The position numbers were made by a program, and so were the translations under genes. From Erythrobacter litoralis (lineage in GTDB: Bacteria > Pseudomonadota > Alphaproteobacteria > Sphingomonadales > Sphingomonadaceae), in NCBI RefSeq assembly GCF_029760855.1, contig NZ_SOSI01000001.1:496001-560000 (forward strand): a DNA stretch of 64,000 nt, written 5' to 3'. Shown here piece by piece: positions 42,630 to 51,806 of the stretch; positions within the stretch are counted from its first letter, which is position 1; every line of letters starts with the position of its first letter. Under the pieces are notes generated by a model that searched no databases, was not told the DNA's origin, and was given only the letters and a program-made list of their open reading frames with translations.

Positions 42630-43268
42630 ATGACCGAAGGGCCGAAAATCGACGTCAAGCAACCGCGAACAAAGCGCGGTGAGAAGACGATGCGCAAACT
42701 GCTGGATGCCGCGACGGCCGAATTTGGTGAGCGTGGATTTCACGAAGCGTCGGTAAGCTCGATCACTACGCGTGCCGGGATCGCGCTCGGCAGCTTCTAC
42801 ACCTATTTCGACAGCAAGGACGCGCTGTTTCGCGCACTGATCCACGACCTGAGCGGGCAGATCCGGTCGGACGCCAGCGCCGCTATCGCCGAGGAGACAG
42901 ATCCGCTTACGATCGAGCGCGAAGCGTTGACCGCGTTCCTGCGTTTTGCAGCCGAGCATAAGGAAATCTATCGCATCATCGACGAAGCGGAATTCGTCGA
43001 TCCCGAAATCTATCGCTACCACTACACCACTATTGCCCAGCGGATCACTGGGCGGCTGCGAAAGGCGGCAGAGGATGGCAAGTTCGTGGAGAGTGCTGGA
43101 GAGATCGAAGCCTGGGCGGTGATGGGGATGAACGTATTCCTCGGCCTGCGTTTCGCCATCTGGCGCGAAGAAGGCGATCCCGCGATCGATCAGATCGCAC
43201 AAGCGGCGAATGCCCTTATCGCAAAGGGATTGGCACGCGCATTTAGCAAGCGCCCGCCCAAGGTGTAA
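42630..43268 (+). CDS. TetR/AcrR-family transcriptional regulator
   Basis: A 212-residue regulator. The N-terminal HTH (about 15-62) reads TMRKLLDAATAEFGERGFHE, ASVSSITTRAGIALGSFYTY and FDSKDALFRALIHD, the classic TetR pattern. The C-terminal domain is all-helical (ALTAFLRFAAEHKEIYRIID) and would bind a ligand and dimerise. The start at 42630 has GGGAGG 5 bp upstream; an ATG at 42618 is also in frame. It is divergent from a TonB receptor with an inverted repeat between the two, so it probably controls that receptor and itself. The ligand is unknown. Confidence 0.92.
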   Translation: MTEGPKIDVKQPRTKRGEKTMRKLLDAATAEFGERGFHEASVSSITTRAGIALGSFYTYFDSKDALFRALIHDLSGQIRSDASAAIAEETDPLTIEREALTAFLRFAAEHKEIYRIIDEAEFVDPEIYRYHYTTIAQRITGRLRKAAEDGKFVESAGEIEAWAVMGMNVFLGLRFAIWREEGDPAIDQIAQAANALIAKGLARAFSKRPPKV

Positions 43269-43353
43269 CATAAGCTACAATGGCGCAGAAAACCGCGCTT
43301 TTAGGCTTCATCGATACTTTTCACAGCCAGCATTGTGTGCCACGCACGCGGCA

Positions 43354-43896
43354 ATGGAAACCTTCCTCGCTGATGCAACCGTTCCCGATGGCCTGAAGGG
43401 CGTTTTCGAACGGAGCAATATTTCTCTATCGCTTGCCGATTACACCTCGCCCGACTGCCCCTTGATCGGGGTAAACGAAGAATTTTGCGAATTGAGCGGA
43501 TACGGGCCGGACGAAGTGCTGGGGCGTAATTGCCGCTTCCTTCAGCCCGAAAATGGAGCAGGTCCGGTGCGGGATCGCATGCGCGCCTTTCTGCAGGACG
43601 AGGGGCAGACCGACGACAAGTTTCTCATTCCGAATATCACCAAGGACGGTCGGCGCTTCCTGAACCTCGTGTACATGTCGAAACTCACCCGCAAGGGGAA
43701 AGTCGAGCTAATTCTCGGTTCACAATTCGCCGTACGCGGAAAGGACGGGCAGGCGCCTGCTTTGTACGATCGCGCATTGGCCGAAGACCTGCGGCAAATG
43801 AACGTCCTTACGAACGAAAACAATTGGGCGCTGCTCGGCAGCTTCGAAGCGCTTGCGTCGAGCCATTCGATCATCGCGCAATCCAAGATCGAATAG
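43354..43896 (+). CDS. Short LOV-domain blue-light photosensor
   Basis: A 180-residue protein consisting of one LOV (PAS) domain and a C-terminal helix. The flavin-binding signature is intact: GRNCRFLQ with the photoadduct Cys60, preceded by SGYGPDEVL and followed by an Arg-rich VRDRMRAFLQ helix. NLVYMSKLTRKGKVELILGS completes the PAS core with a C-terminal Gln-containing strand (GSQFAV). There is no fused effector, so it resembles the short LOV proteins of pseudomonads. A helix with ALAEDLRQMNVLTNENNWAL could serve as output or dimer interface. The kinase gene follows after 13 bp in the same direction, which points to a functional pair. Confidence 0.95.
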   Translation: METFLADATVPDGLKGVFERSNISLSLADYTSPDCPLIGVNEEFCELSGYGPDEVLGRNCRFLQPENGAGPVRDRMRAFLQDEGQTDDKFLIPNITKDGRRFLNLVYMSKLTRKGKVELILGSQFAVRGKDGQAPALYDRALAEDLRQMNVLTNENNWALLGSFEALASSHSIIAQSKIE

Positions 43897-43909
43897 TGAC
43901 GGAGTAGTC

Positions 43910-46900
43910 GTGACGGGGGTCAGCAAACCTTTTCCAATCATCGGCGTGGGCGCTTCGGCCGGCGGCCTCGAAGCCTTACGCGAACTGTTCGGCGGCTTCG
44001 ACGGGCAGACCGGTATGGCGTTTGTCGTCGTGCAGCATCTCGATCCGACGCATGAGTCGCTGATGGCGCAGCTGATCGAACGGTACACCGCCATGTCCGT
44101 CCGCCAGGCGAGCGGAGGCGAAACGATCGAGCGCGATAACGTGTATGTGATCCCGCCGGGCCACGGGTTGGCGCTCGACAATGGCGTGCTCAACTTGACC
44201 GAATTCAAGGAATCGCGCGGCATGCGTCGCCCGATCGACGATTTTTTCGAGAGCCTAGCCGAAGATCGCGGCACACAGGCGGCCTGCGTCATCCTGTCCG
44301 GCACGGGTGCCGACGGCAGTCGCGGCCTGCGCGCCATCAAAGAGCATGGTGGCATCTGTCTGGTACAGGAGCCGGAAAGCGCCGCTTACGACGGCATGCC
44401 CGCTTCGGCCATCGGCACCGGACTTGTCGATATCGTTAGCGCTCCGAGCGACATCGTGCCCTACCTCACGAAGTTCTTCGAACGCGGCGACCTCTCGCAA
44501 GACGACCTCGAGGATGCTTCGGATGTGGCAGACCATATCGACAATTTGTGCGATGTGTTGCGCGATGCGGTCGGCCACGATTTCTCGCGGTACAAGCGCA
44601 GTACGCTCAATCGCCGTATCGCACGGCGCATGCAGGTTCTCGGCATCGAGAACGGGGTGGATTATCTCGATCGGTTGAAGGGCGACCGGGGTGAATGCGA
44701 TGCCCTGTTCCGGGATCTCCTGATCAACGTCACCCGCTTCTTCCGTGACGACGACCAGTTCGAAGCACTGAATCAAGTCGTGATCGATCGACTGGTCGCC
44801 AAAGCACGCGACGCAGAGGAAATCCGCGTATGGGTGGCAGGCTGTTCCAGCGGCGAGGAAGCCTACACGATCGCCATCCTGTTCGACGCGGCGATGAAGA
44901 AGCACGGCAAGCGCCCTTACGTTCAGGTCTTCGCCACCGACATCGACGACAAGATGCTCGAGATCGCACGCGGCGCGACCTATCCTATCGCTGCGATAAC
45001 CGACATTCCCGAAGGATATCGCGACGAAGCAGTCATCGGTTCGTCGGAGCGTTTTACGATCGCGCCGCACATCCGCGATATGGTGCGTTTCAGCGTACAT
45101 AACGTCGTGCGCGACCCGCCTTTCGCCAAGATCGATCTAATCTCCTGCCGTAACGTCCTCATCTATTTCGATGATACGCTGCAAAAAAACGTGATTCCGC
45201 TGTTCCACTTCGCATTGAAGGAGGACGGCAAGCTCTTCCTCGGCTCTTCGGAAGCGATCGGTCGGTATGAGGACCTGTTCGAAGTCGTCGATCAGGCCAA
45301 CCGCCTGTTCCGGCGCAAGAACGTGAAAGGCCGCTATACGCTGCAATTGTCGGGCAATGTCGGCATGTCGCAAAAGCCCCGCCGGCTTTCGCCGCCGAGC
45401 CCGCCGCCGCGTGGGAACGACAGTACCGAAACCGCCGCGCTTAAGCTCATCGCTCAGCGCTATGCCCCCGTCAGCCTGCTCGTCGATCGCGAAGGCTTGC
45501 TGATCGATCGTTGGGGTGCCGCCGGTCGCTATCTCGATTTTCCCGAACGGCTCGAACGCAATATTCATGTGCCATCGCTCGCCCGTCCTGGTTTGCGCGA
45601 ACTCGTCAGTCCTTTGATTCGCAAGGCTTCGGATACCGGTCGCCGGATCGGCGCGAAGGACGTCGAAATCCGCACGGATTTTGGCAGCCTGCAAGCGCGC
45701 ATCGTATGCGAACCGCTCGAACACGCGACCTTCCTGATCGTCATTCAGGAAACAGGATCACTCGAATTGGCGGACGACGATCTCGATATATTCGAAATCG
45801 ATGGGGAGCAGCAGCAATTTCTCGAAGAAGAATTGCAGGCGACCCGCCACCGACTGCGATCGACGGTGGAAGAACTCGAGACGACGAACGAGGAACTGAA
45901 AAGCTCCAACGAAGAAATGATGTCGATGAACGAGGAGCTTCAATCGACCAACGAGGAGCTGACCACGGTCAACGATGAGCTGAAATCGAAGGTCGATCAA
46001 CTTACCGTCGCCAATTCCGATCTGCGCAATTTCTTCGACAGCACCGAGATGGCGGTGCTGGTAGTCGATGCCGACCTGAAATTGCGCAGCTTTACCGACG
46101 CGGCGCTGGAACTTTTCCCGATCGGTCGCGACCGGATCGGCGACAGGTTGGGCGACCTGCCGACCCGCTTCGAAAAAAAATCCTATGTCGATCTTGCGCG
46201 CCGCGCGGCCAGTCGCGGGGAAGCAGGGGAACATAGAGTACAGTCGGAGGCCTTGAGCGCCGAATATATATTGCGGACGACACCCTACCGATTGGCGGAT
46301 GGAGAAATCGACGGCGCGACGATCGTGTTCAACGATGTCACCAATGCGCTTTCGCTGGAACGTGACCTGAAGGAAGAGAGGGAGCGGTTACGCCTCGCCC
46401 TGGATGTCGCGAAGATCGGAATTTGGGAATACGAACCTTCCACCGACGAACTCGTATTGGACGAGAAAGAGCGCAGTCTTCTCGACCTCGGTGTCGAAGA
46501 CGATGCGGATACGATGGAACCCATCCTTTCGAGGCTTCCTGGCGAGGATCGGGACCGCATCAACCGTGCCCTTCGCATGGCGATGGAAGGCGATCGGGAC
46601 TTCAACGAGATTTTCCGGCTGCCGCTGAATGACGGGCAGTTCCGTTGGCTGCACGGTCTCGGCAAATTGATCGAAACCGGAAACCGGAAGAGATTTATCG
46701 GTGTCACATTCGATGTGACCGCCGAACATTCCGCGCTCGATCAACGCGAATTGATGATTCGCGAGATGAACCACCGGGTGAAGAACCTGTTCTCGGTAAT
46801 CTCGGCCATGGTCACTATCGCCGCGCGCAACGCGGAGGACGTGAAGAGCTTCGCAGAAAGCCTACGCAGCCGAATTCATGCGCTCGATCAGTCGCATTCG

Positions 46901-47320
46901 CTTACCACGCGCACTACCGGAGACGATGCGGGCGTCGTTCTTCTCGGCGATCTTATCGAGACGGTCATTGCACCGAACAGGTCAGGTCAGGACGTCGTCG
47001 TCAAGGGACCCGACATACAGATTTCCGACCGTCAGCTCACCTCCCTCGCCCTCATTCTTCACGAATGGGCGACCAACTCGTCGAAGTACGGCGCGCTGTC
47101 GATCGAAGACGGATGCCTCGAGGTTCACTGGTCCGAGAAGGACGGTGCGGTTGCCATGAAATGGTCGGAAGAGGGGGGAACCGATAGCTCTACGCACGAT
47201 ACCAAGCCCGGTTTCGGCACACGGCTGGTCGAAACCGCCGCGCGGCAGCTACGCGGCGAGGCTACGGGCGAACCGACCGATGACGGCTATCGACGTCGCC
47301 TGGTATTCCCTCTTGCATAG
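43910..47320 (+). CDS. CheB-CheR-PAS-HWE histidine kinase fusion protein
   Basis: A 1136-residue multidomain signalling protein. A CheB methylesterase domain (about 8-190) has GVGASAGGLEALRE, VVVQHLDPTHES and LSGTGADGSRG but no receiver. A CheR methyltransferase domain (about 205-470) has FSRYKRSTLNRRIARRM and the SAM motif VAGCSSGEEAYTI. A coiled coil rich in TNEEL repeats leads to two PAS domains (about 710-830 and 845-950). The C-terminal HWE kinase (about 950-1136) has the phospho-acceptor MNHRVKNLFSVI, the N box ILHEWATNSSKYGALS, the WxE motif VHWSEKDG and GFGTRLVE. GTG at 43910 was chosen for the CGGAG 5 bp before it. It lies 13 bp after the LOV gene. Its phosphorylation target is unknown. 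Confidence 0.93.
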   Translation: MTGVSKPFPIIGVGASAGGLEALRELFGGFDGQTGMAFVVVQHLDPTHESLMAQLIERYTAMSVRQASGGETIERDNVYVIPPGHGLALDNGVLNLTEFKESRGMRRPIDDFFESLAEDRGTQAACVILSGTGADGSRGLRAIKEHGGICLVQEPESAAYDGMPASAIGTGLVDIVSAPSDIVPYLTKFFERGDLSQDDLEDASDVADHIDNLCDVLRDAVGHDFSRYKRSTLNRRIARRMQVLGIENGVDYLDRLKGDRGECDALFRDLLINVTRFFRDDDQFEALNQVVIDRLVAKARDAEEIRVWVAGCSSGEEAYTIAILFDAAMKKHGKRPYVQVFATDIDDKMLEIARGATYPIAAITDIPEGYRDEAVIGSSERFTIAPHIRDMVRFSVHNVVRDPPFAKIDLISCRNVLIYFDDTLQKNVIPLFHFALKEDGKLFLGSSEAIGRYEDLFEVVDQANRLFRRKNVKGRYTLQLSGNVGMSQKPRRLSPPSPPPRGNDSTETAALKLIAQRYAPVSLLVDREGLLIDRWGAAGRYLDFPERLERNIHVPSLARPGLRELVSPLIRKASDTGRRIGAKDVEIRTDFGSLQARIVCEPLEHATFLIVIQETGSLELADDDLDIFEIDGEQQQFLEEELQATRHRLRSTVEELETTNEELKSSNEEMMSMNEELQSTNEELTTVNDELKSKVDQLTVANSDLRNFFDSTEMAVLVVDADLKLRSFTDAALELFPIGRDRIGDRLGDLPTRFEKKSYVDLARRAASRGEAGEHRVQSEALSAEYILRTTPYRLADGEIDGATIVFNDVTNALSLERDLKEERERLRLALDVAKIGIWEYEPSTDELVLDEKERSLLDLGVEDDADTMEPILSRLPGEDRDRINRALRMAMEGDRDFNEIFRLPLNDGQFRWLHGLGKLIETGNRKRFIGVTFDVTAEHSALDQRELMIREMNHRVKNLFSVISAMVTIAARNAEDVKSFAESLRSRIHALDQSHSLTTRTTGDDAGVVLLGDLIETVIAPNRSGQDVVVKGPDIQISDRQLTSLALILHEWATNSSKYGALSIEDGCLEVHWSEKDGAVAMKWSEEGGTDSSTHDTKPGFGTRLVETAARQLRGEATGEPTDDGYRRRLVFPLA

Positions 47321-47328
47321 CCCGGAAA

Positions 47329-47358
47329 GGCAATCGGACCGCGCTCAGGCCGATTGCC
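47329..47358. other. Perfect inverted repeat at a convergent gene junction
   Basis: GGCAATCGG (47329-47337) pairs with CCGATTGCC (47350-47358) around 12 bases that include the stop codon of the GGDEF/EAL gene. It lies between the convergent kinase and GGDEF/EAL genes. No T-tract follows on either side, so any terminator role is weak. Confidence 0.4.
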
Positions 47359-49651
47359 GCGCCGGGAAAACCGCTTGGCCGAATATGGCATTCATCGCGC
47401 TGGCGGGGACCGGGCGGCTGAAGAGATAGCCCTGCCCGAAGCCGCAGCCCTCGTCTTCCAGAACCTGACGCTGTTCGGGGCTTTCCACCCCTTCGGCCAG
47501 CGTTTCCATGCCCAGAGCTTCAGCGAGCGTCGTTATGGCGCGAATGACGGCGTGGGCATTCTTGCCCTCTTGGCAAAGATCGCGCACGAAACTCTGGTCG
47601 ATCTTCACCTTGTCGAACGGGAACTGGCGCAGATAGCTTAGCGACGAGTAGCCCGTGCCGAAATCGTCCAGGGAAATGCGCACGCCAAGGTCGCGAACGC
47701 CGTGCAGAACGCTCAGCACCTTGTCGACATCGGCGATGAAGACGCTTTCGGTGATTTCCAGTTCGAGTTGCTGAGGCGGGAGGCCGGACGTCGTCAGGGC
47801 TTGCATGATAATCGAGGACAAACCCGGCGCCGAGAACTGCTTGGGGGAAATATTGACGGCAACCGAGAAATTGCCCGGCCATTGCGAAGCGGCATGACAA
47901 GCCTCACGGATGACCCATTCGCCGATCGGCAATATGAGGCCGGTTTCTTCGGCAAGAGGGATGAACTCTGCAGGACTTATCATTCCCTTGGTCGGATGTT
48001 GCCACCGGATAAGGGCCTCGAATCCAGTCAATTCGTTCTTTCGAAGGGAATAAAGCGGCTGGAAGTGCAGCGCGAACTGCCCCTCCTTCAGAGCGAGCCG
48101 AAGATCGAGCTCCATCTCCCGCCGGCGGCGCGCCTGTTCGTCCAGCGATGCTTCGAAGAAATGGAAATTCGCTTTTCCGTCGCGCTTTGCCCGATAAAGC
48201 GCGAGATCGGCATGCTTTAACAGCGTGACACCATCCTCGCCGTCCGAAGGCGCGATGGCGATGCCGATACTTGCCGAACAATCTGCCAATTGCCCTTCGA
48301 TGCGGATCTGACGCTCGAAGCAATCCTTGATGCGCCTGGCGTGATCGAACAGGGAAACGTTCGGATTTTTTTCGATCATCAGAATGGCGAATTCGTCGCC
48401 GCCCAGCCGCGCAATCACGGCATCCTGAAGTTCTTGCCGCAAGCACTCTGCAACATGGCGAAGCATGGTGTCGCCAGCCGGGTGTCCCATCGTATCGTTG
48501 ACGACCTTGAAATCGTCGAGATCGCAATAGGCGACGAGTATGCGCTCCCCGTTGGAACGGCGCGCTAGGTGTTGGGAGAGCTGTTCCGCAAACAGGCGAC
48601 GGTTGGGAAGATTGGTTAGCCCGTCGTGCAAACCGACATGGATGATCTTTCGCTCGCGCTCCTCGATCGCCTCCATCATCGAACCGAAACTGCTGGCAAG
48701 CCTGCCGACCTCATCATCGGTTTGCTGCGGCAATTCGACCGTTTCCCCTTGGCCAAAACGTCGCACGGCTGAATCGAGTTTGGCGATCGGCCCGGCGACG
48801 CCCTGCGCGACCCTTCCGCCAAGAGCAATCACCAGAGCAAGCCCGGCAAAGCCGACAGCGAACAGCGTATATTTCAGGCCGGAATAGGCCTGAAGCGCCT
48901 CCCCCAGTGAATGGCGGAGGACGAGGCGGGGCGAAAGGCCATCCTCGAGACTTGGCAATGCGTTCAGCAGATAGAGGTTTCGGGCTTCACCATTCTCTTC
49001 GTAAATATCGCCGACCGGCGTAAGTGCCAAATCCTGTGGTAGATTGCCGATATCCCGCACTGTAGCGGAAGTCTCTACCGCCGCCAATTTGGAGAGCCGC
49101 GCCATCTCGTTCTGGTCGAGCGGTTGCGCGATAACTAGCCATCCCAAGAGGTCCGGCGCTTCGATGGGAGCGGCCGCAGCCAGAGCGAGGCCATCACCCA
49201 TCCGGACCATGCCCCGCTCCCGCCCCTCGTCGAGGGCGTACCATATGCTTTCGCCATCGGGCGTTGTCGTGCCACCGGCACTCGTCACCGATCCATCGAG
49301 ATCGACGACGAAAGCCGACGATGCGTGGGTCCGATCGCCCAAGCTTCGTAACGCGCTCGAGATCGTGGGACCATCCCCCGTTGCGACAGCTTCGCGGAAA
49401 CCGAAATCGTGAGCGAGAACATCCGCCGATCCACGCATCTGGCGCGCGCGCAGTTCGATGATTTCGTCGAATACCCGGGCATTGGCGGCCAAATCCCGTT
49501 GCGCACTGTGCTCGCCGAATTGCTCGATGCCGGCGCTAACCAGCATGATCATGACGGTGAGCACGATGGCGAACAGGACGGCGTAAAGCGCCGCGATCCG
49601 CTGCCGCAGCGAGCCGAAGCGCAATCGCGCAAGTCGGTCCGAAAACTGCAT
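47345..49651 (-). CDS. Membrane-bound sensor diguanylate cyclase/phosphodiesterase (HAMP-GGDEF-EAL)
   Basis: A 768-residue c-di-GMP enzyme. TM helix 1 is at about 17-42 (RIAALYAVLFAIVLTVMIML). A periplasmic sensor region (about 43-250) precedes TM2 (LFAVGFAGLALVIALGGRVA), a HAMP domain (GPIAKLDSAVRRFGQGETVE), a GGDEF domain with intact ARLGGDEFAIL, and an EAL domain with intact GFEALIRWQHP and DDFGTGYSSLSYLRQFPFDK. Both catalytic motifs look competent, so it could make or degrade c-di-GMP depending on the signal. The start shares a base with the stop of the cupredoxin-like gene (TGATG). I recall GGDEF/EAL, cupredoxin-like, DUF3034 and truncated-globin genes occurring together in other proteobacteria. 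Confidence 0.94.
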   Translation of the reverse strand: MQFSDRLARLRFGSLRQRIAALYAVLFAIVLTVMIMLVSAGIEQFGEHSAQRDLAANARVFDEIIELRARQMRGSADVLAHDFGFREAVATGDGPTISSALRSLGDRTHASSAFVVDLDGSVTSAGGTTTPDGESIWYALDEGRERGMVRMGDGLALAAAAPIEAPDLLGWLVIAQPLDQNEMARLSKLAAVETSATVRDIGNLPQDLALTPVGDIYEENGEARNLYLLNALPSLEDGLSPRLVLRHSLGEALQAYSGLKYTLFAVGFAGLALVIALGGRVAQGVAGPIAKLDSAVRRFGQGETVELPQQTDDEVGRLASSFGSMMEAIEERERKIIHVGLHDGLTNLPNRRLFAEQLSQHLARRSNGERILVAYCDLDDFKVVNDTMGHPAGDTMLRHVAECLRQELQDAVIARLGGDEFAILMIEKNPNVSLFDHARRIKDCFERQIRIEGQLADCSASIGIAIAPSDGEDGVTLLKHADLALYRAKRDGKANFHFFEASLDEQARRRREMELDLRLALKEGQFALHFQPLYSLRKNELTGFEALIRWQHPTKGMISPAEFIPLAEETGLILPIGEWVIREACHAASQWPGNFSVAVNISPKQFSAPGLSSIIMQALTTSGLPPQQLELEITESVFIADVDKVLSVLHGVRDLGVRISLDDFGTGYSSLSYLRQFPFDKVKIDQSFVRDLCQEGKNAHAVIRAITTLAEALGMETLAEGVESPEQRQVLEDEGCGFGQGYLFSRPVPASAMNAIFGQAVFPARQSA

Positions 49652-50262
49652 CAGCGCAACCGGACAGCGATCTTGTGGCGGTTATTGGCTCCGGAGATAG
49701 ATACATCGCGCCGCAGTTCGCCGGCCGGAGCACGAAGGCGGGGATGCCATACCGTGATCTGCGCCGCCCCGCCCGGCACGTTATCCAAGGCAACATAGCC
49801 ATTCGCATCGGTCTTTGACGCGAATGGGGTGTCGACCACTCGGATATACCCACGCATCTGATCGTGAATGTTGCAGCCGAGCGCGACGGTCCCGGCCTTT
49901 GCGAACCCTTGCGTGCGGGTCTGGTCACGACCGTAGAGTTCGATCTCGAATTTCGCGGGTTTGGAAAAACTGTAAACGGAATGCCTCACCCGATCGAGAT
50001 TGGGAAAGGCTACCGTGCTTCCGCGCGCCACGATCAGGGTGCCGGGCACGAACTGCTCGCCCTTCTGCGCCATGGCCATGCGCCAGGGAAAACTGATGCG
50101 CCCTGTCGAAGCACCGGAAGAAAGGATTTCCACGACAGCATCGCGAACGGGCATTCCGCGCTCGTCGACGATCTGCACCCTGACCGGAACCGGAGCCGCA
50201 GCCTGCAATAGGCCGGAAGTAAGCACCAATAGACCGGCGAGAGCGAAGGCGAGGCGTTTCAT
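49651..50262 (-). CDS. Cupredoxin-like (methylamine-utilisation-type) periplasmic protein
   Basis: A 203-residue exported protein with a signal peptide (LAFALAGLLVLTSGLLQAAA). A carboxypeptidase-like strand region starts the mature part (VRVQIVDERGMPVRDAVVEI). A cupredoxin-like core follows: VARGSTVAFPNLDRVRHSVY, then GTVALGCNIHDQMRGYIRVV. The His in RHSVY and the Cys and His of LGCNIHDQM match type 1 copper ligands, and the Met two residues later (HDQM) completes the usual set. It is often annotated as methylamine utilisation protein, but no methylamine dehydrogenase is here. It overlaps the GGDEF/EAL gene by one base and is probably translated with it. Electron carrier or copper sensor are possible roles. 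Confidence 0.88.
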   Translation of the reverse strand: MKRLAFALAGLLVLTSGLLQAAAPVPVRVQIVDERGMPVRDAVVEILSSGASTGRISFPWRMAMAQKGEQFVPGTLIVARGSTVAFPNLDRVRHSVYSFSKPAKFEIELYGRDQTRTQGFAKAGTVALGCNIHDQMRGYIRVVDTPFASKTDANGYVALDNVPGGAAQITVWHPRLRAPAGELRRDVSISGANNRHKIAVRLR

Positions 50263-50349
50263 GGCACGCCCGAAATACGGCGGAAACCCTTAAGAAAGCG
50301 TCCCTCGAGGGTTAATCACTTTGAAACCACGATCTGCGAAATCCTACTC

Positions 50350-51267
50350 ATGAAAAGAGTCGCTCGGGTCTTAGCGTTCGCGCAGACCGCATATTTTGTT
50401 GCCGTCGCGCAGACCGCCACCGCACAGGTGGATGAAGCGCCATCCGTCTTGGTGGAATCGCCCCCGCCGGCTGACTACAATGCCAAGCTGCTTCTTACGA
50501 ATGGCATTTCAACCATTGGCGGCGCCAGCGGCGGCGGAATCTCCGATTGGGCGACCATAGCCGGCAGGCAATCCGATCGCGGAATCGGCGTCCAGCTACA
50601 TGTCAGCGGAGCGGTGTTGCCCGATTATCTGTGGCAAAGCCACGGAATAGCGGTCGGAATAGCGGACCGCGTCGAACTTTCCTATGCGCGGCAGAATTTC
50701 GATACGCAGGATGTCGGTGCAGCACTTGGAATTGGGCAGGGTTATGTCCTTAATCAGGATGTTTGGGGCGCGAAGCTCCGGGTCGCGGGAGACACGGTAT
50801 ACGGCTCCCCTCTGCTGCCGCAGATTGCCGTAGGCGTGCAGTACAAGCGGTCGCTCGACGGGGGCGTTGCCGCTGCCGTCGGGGCGGCACACGACGAAGG
50901 CGTCGACTTTGTCGTCAGCGCGACGAAGCTGTTCCTCGCACGAAGCATACTCTTGGATGCGACGGCGCGAATGACCAAAGCGAACCAGAACGGGCTGCTC
51001 GGTTTCGGGAGCGTCGGCAATGATGACTACTCGGTTCAGTTCGAAGGGGCGCTCGCGTACCAGTTTTCCCGTCGTTTCGTCATGGGCGCGGAATATCGAA
51101 GCAAGCCGGACAATCTCGGTCTCGGCGAAGATGACTGGATCGATATCTTTGCGGCCTGGGGCGCGACCGATAATATTACCGTGACGGCAGCTTATGCCGA
51201 TCTCGGGTCCATCGCGACGTTCGAGGGGCAACGCGGCGTGTTCGCCCAAGCCCAGCTCGCATTCTAA
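50350..51267 (+). CDS. DUF3034 family outer-membrane protein
   Basis: A 305-residue exported protein. The signal peptide (ARVLAFAQTAYFVAVAQTAT) is followed by a beta-rich mature chain typical of a small outer-membrane barrel. Family blocks include KLLLTNGISTIGGASGGGIS near the N-terminus, a middle region of alternating strands (YVLNQDVWGAKLRVAGDTVY) and a C-terminal FAQAQLAF with a final Phe. The function of DUF3034 proteins is unknown. It is divergent from the cupredoxin-like gene (88-bp gap), and the truncated haemoglobin gene starts 12 bp after its stop. I recall the same group of genes in other proteobacteria. Confidence 0.9.
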   Translation: MKRVARVLAFAQTAYFVAVAQTATAQVDEAPSVLVESPPPADYNAKLLLTNGISTIGGASGGGISDWATIAGRQSDRGIGVQLHVSGAVLPDYLWQSHGIAVGIADRVELSYARQNFDTQDVGAALGIGQGYVLNQDVWGAKLRVAGDTVYGSPLLPQIAVGVQYKRSLDGGVAAAVGAAHDEGVDFVVSATKLFLARSILLDATARMTKANQNGLLGFGSVGNDDYSVQFEGALAYQFSRRFVMGAEYRSKPDNLGLGEDDWIDIFAAWGATDNITVTAAYADLGSIATFEGQRGVFAQAQLAF

Positions 51268-51278
51268 GGATTTACGAT

Positions 51279-51806
51279 ATGTTCGAGCTCGCGCTTACCT
51301 TTCTGATGATGCAGCAAGCGCCTGCAGAAAATACGGACTGGGACGAAGCATTCGGTGTCGAAGAGGCGGTACGGGATCCGCAAACAGGCGAGCTTCCAGT
51401 GGATCCCTACGACGTCGACAATGCCAATGCGGGTGCAAAGCCATTCTCCGGCAGCAGCATCGCAGCCGATTTCGGCGGGAAAGACGGTATTCGCCAAATC
51501 GCCGATCGATTTGTCGACCTGAACATTTCCGACCCTCGCGTAGCCGCGATATTCGCCGGCCACGACCATGTTCGCCTTCGCCGAACTCTGTACGAGCAGT
51601 TCTGCTACATTCTCAATGCGGGTTGTGAATATACCGGCCGCGATATGGCGACCGCACACCAGGGTCTTGGTACGCGTAAACCGGATCTCAATGCGATTGT
51701 CGAAAATCTGCAAAAAGCCATGCGGGAAGCGGATGTTTCCTTCGTCGCGCAAAACCGCTTCCTGGCGAAACTGGCGCCGATGTACGGCGATGTCGTTACT
51801 CGTTGA
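51279..51806 (+). CDS. Group 1 truncated haemoglobin with N-terminal extension
   Basis: A 175-residue protein. Residues 1-60 are an extension (MFELALTFLMMQQAPAEN at the start, then acidic residues) not found in minimal group 1 globins. The globin starts near AADFGGKDGIRQIADRFVDL; NISDPRVAAIFAG and RTLYEQFCYILNAGCEYTGR follow, and AHQGLG contains the proximal His (His127). A hydrophobic start might direct it to the periplasm, but the segment is short and poorly formed. Such globins bind O2, NO or CO. It lies 12 bp after DUF3034, in the same transcript. The extension is odd for the family. Confidence 0.88.
   Translation: MFELALTFLMMQQAPAENTDWDEAFGVEEAVRDPQTGELPVDPYDVDNANAGAKPFSGSSIAADFGGKDGIRQIADRFVDLNISDPRVAAIFAGHDHVRLRRTLYEQFCYILNAGCEYTGRDMATAHQGLGTRKPDLNAIVENLQKAMREADVSFVAQNRFLAKLAPMYGDVVTR

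Follow-up and report, generated by a model that had tools for sequence, protein, structure and literature searches.

Four neighboring genes for a GGDEF/EAL receptor, a cupredoxin-like protein, a DUF3034 protein and a truncated globin: a conserved unit and a candidate c-di-GMP sensory system of the cell envelope

The genome of Erythrobacter litoralis contains, within a stretch of 64,000 nucleotides (nt) that is called the window here, a group of four genes at positions 47345-51806. They encode a membrane receptor with GGDEF and EAL domains, a cupredoxin-like protein, a protein of the DUF3034 family, and a truncated globin. This combination raises the question of whether proteins connected with copper, heme, and cyclic diguanosine monophosphate (c-di-GMP) belong together, as a preliminary description of the DNA had proposed, and what they would do in common. 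Sequence comparison, on which the statements about the unit, its spread, its conserved sites, and the swapping of its output are based, indicated that the four genes form one conserved unit, the arrangement of which varies and which is in some cases split between loci. We consider it reasonably probable that the unit is sensory, spans the envelope, and sets the c-di-GMP level, with the cupredoxin as the cognate partner of the receptor and with the globin and the DUF3034 barrel feeding in the signal.

All four genes were recovered from the list of open reading frames (ORFs) within positions 47345-51806, and they are organized as follows:

47345..49651, minus strand: receptor of 768 amino acids with a Cache-like periplasmic domain, HAMP, GGDEF, and EAL, inner membrane (ORF, Pfam, hydrophobicity)
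49651..50262, minus strand: cupredoxin-like protein of 203 amino acids, exported (ORF, AlphaFold model, profile)
50263..50349, no strand: divergent intergenic region, which holds a TTAA-N18-TTAA element at 50290-50315
50350..51267, plus strand: DUF3034 protein of 305 amino acids, predicted 12-stranded outer-membrane barrel (ORF, Pfam, AlphaFold)
51279..51806, plus strand: truncated globin of 175 amino acids, probably exported, with His127, Cys109/Cys116, and distal Val/Leu/Leu (ORF, Pfam)

The genes thus form two divergent pairs, cupredoxin followed by receptor on the minus strand and DUF3034 followed by globin on the plus strand. In the first pair, a TGATG overlap could be read directly: the stop codon of the upstream cupredoxin gene and the ATG of the receptor gene share one A. 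The placement of the genes, the TGATG coupling, and the divergent pair given in the preliminary description were therefore all verified from the ORFs and the letters. The Pfam matches were above the curated cut-offs for EAL (253.8 bits), GGDEF (133.5), dCache_3 (39.6), HAMP (27.4), DUF3034 (PF11231, 290.2 bits, cut-off 25), and Bac_globin (PF01152, 35.7 bits, cut-off 21). The cupredoxin gene had no Pfam cupredoxin match, and only a sub-threshold match to CarboxypepD_reg was found. Matches to two cassette models within a single frame were not found.

To what extent the four families occur together was analyzed in 398 genomes of the phylum. A search with PF11231 detected DUF3034 in 39 of them, the own genome included. 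The thresholds were an E value of 1e-40 or better for the globin, below 1e-30 for the cupredoxin, and 1e-8 or better for the sensor domain of the receptor; for these three, the best candidates per genome were scored, and further copies are possible. In all 39 DUF3034 genomes a cassette-type globin gene was present within 300 nt of the DUF3034 gene. The cupredoxin was found in 38 of the 39 versus 15 of the 359 other genomes, and the sensor domain in 37 of the 39 versus 13 of the 359 others. In 30 of the 39 genomes, cupredoxin and sensor were both located at most 4 kb from DUF3034. As counted, this co-occurrence is far beyond chance, with Fisher values that ignore shared ancestry. The cassette-type globin has 42 places, of which 39 are beside DUF3034, one is beside broken DUF3034 pieces (genome G078), and two are without DUF3034 (G154 and G328). 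In the own genome (2.97 Mb), each of the four genes had one match, with only the best candidates scored for globin, cupredoxin, and sensor. DUF3034 had no match in the 14 named control genomes of the search.

An independent approach via the cupredoxin yielded 45 loci, 41 of which contained all four genes. Two of the four exceptions (L041, L063) start at a contig end, and the other two (L072, L075) carry a different receptor. The closest named matches in the cupredoxin search were from Erythrobacter and Qipengyuania, and Alpha-, Beta-, and Gammaproteobacteria all have members with the four-gene unit. DUF3034 was also found in 13 plasmid records, and the three that were opened (Novosphingobium, Caballeronia) show the four genes as neighbors. 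Thus, the gene-neighborhood survey that the preliminary description had suggested revealed families that co-occur well beyond close relatives, and one unit of four families was corroborated. The distance correlations among the four proteins were positive over 70 loci, with ancestry ignored, and were not used as proof.

The arrangement was surveyed at 39 loci that were fetched from the 38 genomes other than the own one, with G078 counted twice. All four genes were on one strand at 19 loci, three further loci had the same organization plus an extra receptor gene, and six were divergent as in the window. Six loci contained DUF3034 and globin only, and the remaining five had other arrangements. 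In at least four genomes (G261, G225, G389, G213) the cupredoxin-receptor pair was located away from the DUF3034-globin pair. Inertia of gene order as the only cause of the association was rejected, because order and strand vary by lineage and the two pairs co-occur also when they are unlinked.

The same distribution bears on the possibility that two modules with separate jobs, cupredoxin-receptor and DUF3034-globin, merely travel together. The separate loci are in accordance with this, as are the 15 and 13 genomes that have cupredoxin or sensor without DUF3034, and G078, which has DUF3034 and globin only. Against it, the cupredoxin is kept in 38 of the 39 DUF3034 genomes, even when the loci are unlinked, and the four genes occur joined in various orders and orientations. 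Two independent modules are thus regarded as very doubtful.

Two side observations were made on the organization of the loci. First, a second DUF3034-globin copy in G078 is in pieces (L115, G078:C3), and a copy without internal stops is located elsewhere in this genome. Second, at three loci (L077, L078, L084) a second GGDEF-EAL gene is present upstream of the cupredoxin gene, so that two receptors surround the cupredoxin; in the genomes of L077 (G344) and L078 (G237) the second receptor also matches the sensor profile.

Next, the four proteins were characterized. For the cupredoxin, the family profile found amicyanin and pseudoazurin in the PDB, weakly. The AlphaFold model (predicted local distance difference test, pLDDT, 93.8) matched cupredoxin folds with Z scores of up to 12.6, and the best match was 5fc9 (Z 12.6, root mean square deviation (rmsd) 1.8, 80 aligned residues). 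The part of the model that matched cupredoxins comprises residues 59-143, and the range that matched carboxypeptidase-regulatory-like sandwiches extends from about residue 23 to 203; the copper domain thus appears to be inserted in such a sandwich. The ligand loop is located as follows:

49855..49875, minus strand: copper-ligand loop C130-x2-H133-x2-M136, with the fourth ligand H94 at 49981-49983

All 78 rows of the alignment (77 distinct sequences) have H94, C130, H133, and M136. As all alignments used here, this one contains rows that are not independent events, with one duplicate genome (L058 = L108) and many close relatives. Fold and ligand set characterize the protein as a putative type 1 copper protein. 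It shares the cupredoxin fold and the ligands His and Cys-x2-His-x2-Met with amicyanin, pseudoazurin, and plastocyanin, and the loop spacing is presumably that of amicyanin. It differs from them by the extra sandwich and by being encoded together with signaling receptors.

The coupling of this gene to a GGDEF/EAL gene, which had been noted before for the window, turned out to be only part of the picture. The cupredoxin gene was found within 200 nt of 45 of the 57 sensor places, and a sensor match within 200 nt of 45 of the 59 cupredoxin places. In L072 and L075 the sensor domain (150 and 142 bits) directly follows the cupredoxin gene and is fused to a class III nucleotide cyclase, and L179 and L188 have the same arrangement. 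In L187 the cupredoxin gene is followed by a protein with HAMP and a Ser/Thr kinase, for which the sensor match was weaker (41 bits). The output has therefore been swapped while cupredoxin and sensor stayed together, and the sequences indicate that the partner of the cupredoxin is the sensor domain and not any particular output. The cupredoxins of L189 and L190 are a counter-example; in their vicinity are hybrid histidine kinases in which the sensor match is weak or absent. In four genomes (G142, G158, G015, G375) cupredoxin and sensor are both present, and they are not adjacent. A possible DUF3034-globin pair in L072 and L075 was rejected, as the genes are SPFH/NfeD.

The receptor has hydrophobic windows that begin near residues 17-28 and 258-264, and the following domains were localized:

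49076..49507, minus strand: dCache_3 / CHASE4-like periplasmic sensor region, residues 49-192 (Pfam; CHASE4 itself below the cut-off)
48659..48808, minus strand: HAMP domain, residues 282-331 (Pfam)
48173..48628, minus strand: GGDEF domain, residues 342-493, motif intact in the window copy (Pfam, residue check)
47411..48106, minus strand: EAL domain, residues 516-747, catalytic E-N-E-D-D-K-E-Q complete (Pfam, residue check)

In the sensor region, D82, F85, T96, S99, and R107 are invariant among 28 aligned sensors. The eight catalytic residues of the EAL domain are complete in 72 of 73 aligned receptors, and the remaining one ends early. A strict GG[DE]EF motif is present in 49 of the 73 and absent in 24; thus, judged by these residues, c-di-GMP hydrolysis is probably the conserved output of the receptor. 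The strict motif was found in 40 of 40 receptors from the window, L032-L070, and L076, and in nine of the 33 others. Three of these nine (L108, L110, L113) belong to the family of the window, and outside this family the count is thus six of 30. The motif is absent from L091, L097, and L111, which are members of the window's class. The translation verified that both motifs are intact in the window protein, and this copy could thus both make and degrade c-di-GMP. What had been missed is that, outside the window's family and the set L032-L070/L076, most receptors have no strict GGDEF motif, while EAL is kept. In the window's family and its near relatives, the GGDEF half may act as a second enzyme, and in most others it may be regulatory or decayed. 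Membership in the DibA phosphodiesterase family (NF045675) was not found: the score of 438.9 bits is below the equivalog cut-off of 980, and the best stretch comprised residues 324-754 only.

The DUF3034 protein yielded an AlphaFold model with a pLDDT of 86.3, in which 12 strands follow a low-confidence N-terminal stretch. The best fold match was FapF (Z 19.9, rmsd 3.0, 222 aligned residues, 11% identity), followed by, among others, KdgM (Z 18.4), NanC (18.0), a COG4313 channel (17.5), and the copper transporter PcoB (13.0). The assignment to the outer membrane in the preliminary description is in accordance with the PF11231 match and with the predicted barrel. Sharing a barrel fold gives no function for DUF3034. 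Copper transport was not claimed from the likeness to PcoB, which is below FapF, KdgM, and NanC, and weak profile matches to Ika8 and Ika4, presumably designed proteins, were discounted, as no stretch passed on its own.

Since transporters and porins are the best fold matches, the DUF3034 protein could also be a channel for a copper or heme compound or another small molecule, with globin and cupredoxin as periplasmic carriers and a receptor that reports uptake. The top nine barrel matches, however, have only 9-13% identity to the protein, a shared fold does not establish a function, and Pfam detected no inner-membrane transporter among the four genes. A role in transport is therefore considered unlikely.

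The globin profile matched TrHbN structures best in the PDB. The window globin belongs to the sequence family of group 1 truncated hemoglobins and has the proximal His F8 (His127). This residue, Cys109, Cys116, and the CD1 Phe92 are each conserved in 80 of 80 rows. At B10, 78 rows have V, L, I, or M, with T in L076 and N in L111; E7 is occupied by L, F, V, or I and E11 by L, F, or I. None of the 80 rows has Tyr at B10 or Gln at E11, with B10, E7, and E11 placed by an ungapped match to TrHbN and its usual numbering. This polar distal site is typical of TrHbN and not required of the whole family. The cassette globin thus shares the fold family, the proximal His, and the CD1 Phe with TrHbN-type group 1 hemoglobins, and it differs in the invariant Cys pair, the lack of Tyr B10 and Gln E11, and its apparent export. 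For comparison, 27 frames were chosen by us from the globin-search list, including the cassette-type L204 and L205, and 12 of the 25 unlinked frames have both Tyr B10 and Gln E11. A further group among these 25, L206, L207, and L209, shares the Cys pair and has Leu at B10 and an N-terminus that looks like a signal; the loci fetched for these three had no DUF3034 match.

A strict lipobox pattern was present in 22 of the 80 globin rows and a looser one in 26 of 43 printed rows, and many other printed rows have N-termini that look signal-like by eye. Because of these N-termini of the relatives and the invariant Cys pair, the globin is probably exported, either to the periplasm or as a lipoprotein. 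Its earlier identification as a truncated globin was thus correct; the apparent export and the lack of the distal Tyr and Gln of TrHbN had not been recognized.

The globin results also bear on detoxification, in which the globin would remove periplasmic NO (nitric oxide) or reactive oxygen, the cupredoxin would donate electrons, DUF3034 would be an accessory channel, and the GGDEF/EAL protein would only adjust behavior under stress. Both the heme and the copper ligands are invariant, cupredoxins are mostly electron carriers, and one cupredoxin relative (L193) lies beside a redoxin. However, all 80 globins lack Tyr B10 and Gln E11, which in TrHbN promote the binding of O2 and the dioxygenation of NO, Pfam detected no reductase among the four genes, NnrS is not enriched (see below), and at loci without globin the cupredoxin is paired with receptors that have different outputs. 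Taken together, detoxification appears improbable.

Two known systems were compared with a sensory role. YfiBNR is reportedly a chain in which an outer-membrane lipoprotein, a periplasmic protein, and an inner-membrane c-di-GMP enzyme act as one. In contrast, the four Pfam assignments of the present unit are not known to correspond to YfiB or YfiR, and its conserved output is EAL, not GGDEF. In NspS-MbaA, a periplasmic protein determines whether c-di-GMP is made or degraded by a bifunctional GGDEF-EAL receptor of the inner membrane (PMC8967002). The likeness consists of a periplasmic protein and a GGDEF-EAL receptor; the difference is that the partner in NspS-MbaA binds polyamines, whereas here it is a cupredoxin, and a globin and an outer-membrane barrel are added. 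By this analogy the cupredoxin was taken as the partner of the receptor and the globin and barrel as the outer input. A c-di-GMP receptor with an envelope partner is thus known, and the cupredoxin-receptor pairing and the exported globin are unusual.

From the conserved features we infer the following physical contacts, direction of the signal, cellular locations, ligand, activity, and phenotype. The outer membrane would contain the DUF3034 barrel and the inner membrane the receptor; the cupredoxin would be periplasmic, and the globin would be periplasmic or anchored as a lipoprotein. The sensor domain would have the cupredoxin as its cognate partner, and the receptor would be set by the copper or redox state of the cupredoxin or by something that the cupredoxin binds. 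The globin, aided by the barrel, would supply or modify the signal, most likely via a small gas or oxidant bound by the heme, and the receptor would respond through c-di-GMP hydrolysis by its EAL domain.

For the gas, H-NOX proteins were used as a guide. They have a fold different from that of globins and are cytoplasmic, whereas the protein here is a truncated globin and apparently exported, and no H-NOX domain was matched in the four proteins by Pfam at E 0.1. According to PMC12329717, loss of the distal Tyr in H-NOX goes with NO rather than O2 sensing, and also in that case a heme protein without distal Tyr is tied to c-di-GMP enzymes. By analogy, the distal-Tyr rule might be carried over to the globin. 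An extended version is possible and decidedly more tentative: an envelope receptor class with a blue-copper protein as Cache partner and a swappable output (c-di-GMP phosphodiesterase, class III cyclase, protein kinase), in which the exported globin without polar distal residues would sense an extracytoplasmic gas, for instance NO, and the signal would reach the copper site by electron transfer or ligand exchange.

Several results weigh against the proposed sensory unit. Two of the six loci (of 39) with DUF3034 and globin only belong to G078, in which the profile search found no cupredoxin or sensor match at all. No sensor match is present within 200 nt of 14 of the 59 cupredoxin places, and the cupredoxin of L203 lies beside a porin-like protein (sub-threshold Porin_4) and that of L193 beside the redoxin. 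In L181 and L202 a gene of about 410-420 residues, a length near that in L203, follows the cupredoxin gene (no Pfam match in L181, and L202 outside the scan); these four loci suggest further partners for cupredoxin relatives. The distal Tyr/Gln pair is also missing in 13 of the 25 comparison globin frames, and therefore its loss is not unique to the cassette globin. The signal peptide of the window globin (MFELALTFLMMQQAPAEN) looks weak by eye. Last, NnrS was found in 19 of the 39 DUF3034 genomes versus 209 of 398 overall, i.e., it is not enriched, and it had no match in the window's own genome; NnrS is a proxy only, and NO sensing does not require NO metabolism.

The preliminary description had suggested that oxygen, NO, or redox state is sensed and controls surface behavior; these signals and this control are candidates only, and an association with NO was not seen via the NnrS proxy. 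Because the copper ligands, the heme ligand, and the EAL site are kept, heme/copper input and c-di-GMP output nevertheless appear to be a sound reading.

No description of the four-gene unit was found in a search of the open-access literature, with subscription journals mostly outside its scope; the mentions of DUF3034 there, as far as these sources were covered, concern retron neighborhoods and a Streptomyces gene list. Two of the four families are annotated as "DUF3034" and "methylamine utilization protein", and with a sensory unit all four would gain a common testable role. If it is true, cupredoxins act in signaling and not only in electron transfer, and a hemoglobin senses outside the cytoplasm. 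As the unit is present in three classes of Proteobacteria, a single mechanism could account for a group of so far unstudied c-di-GMP receptors across them.

The divergent intergenic region was analyzed for conserved elements. A CtrA-type site (TTAA-N7-TTAA) was found in one of 43 divergent regions, among them that of the window, and an FNR-type site in none of the 43. The pattern TTAA-N17-19-TT[AT]A was present in 21 of the 43, versus at most two in 200 simple shuffles, with regions that are related by descent. Two further genes are located beside the unit. One encodes a PAS protein (43210-43896) with a GRNCRFLQ motif, which we take to resemble that of a LOV blue-light domain. The other (43853-47320) encodes a CheB-CheR-PAS-HWE histidine kinase and, on its longest reading, overlaps the PAS gene.

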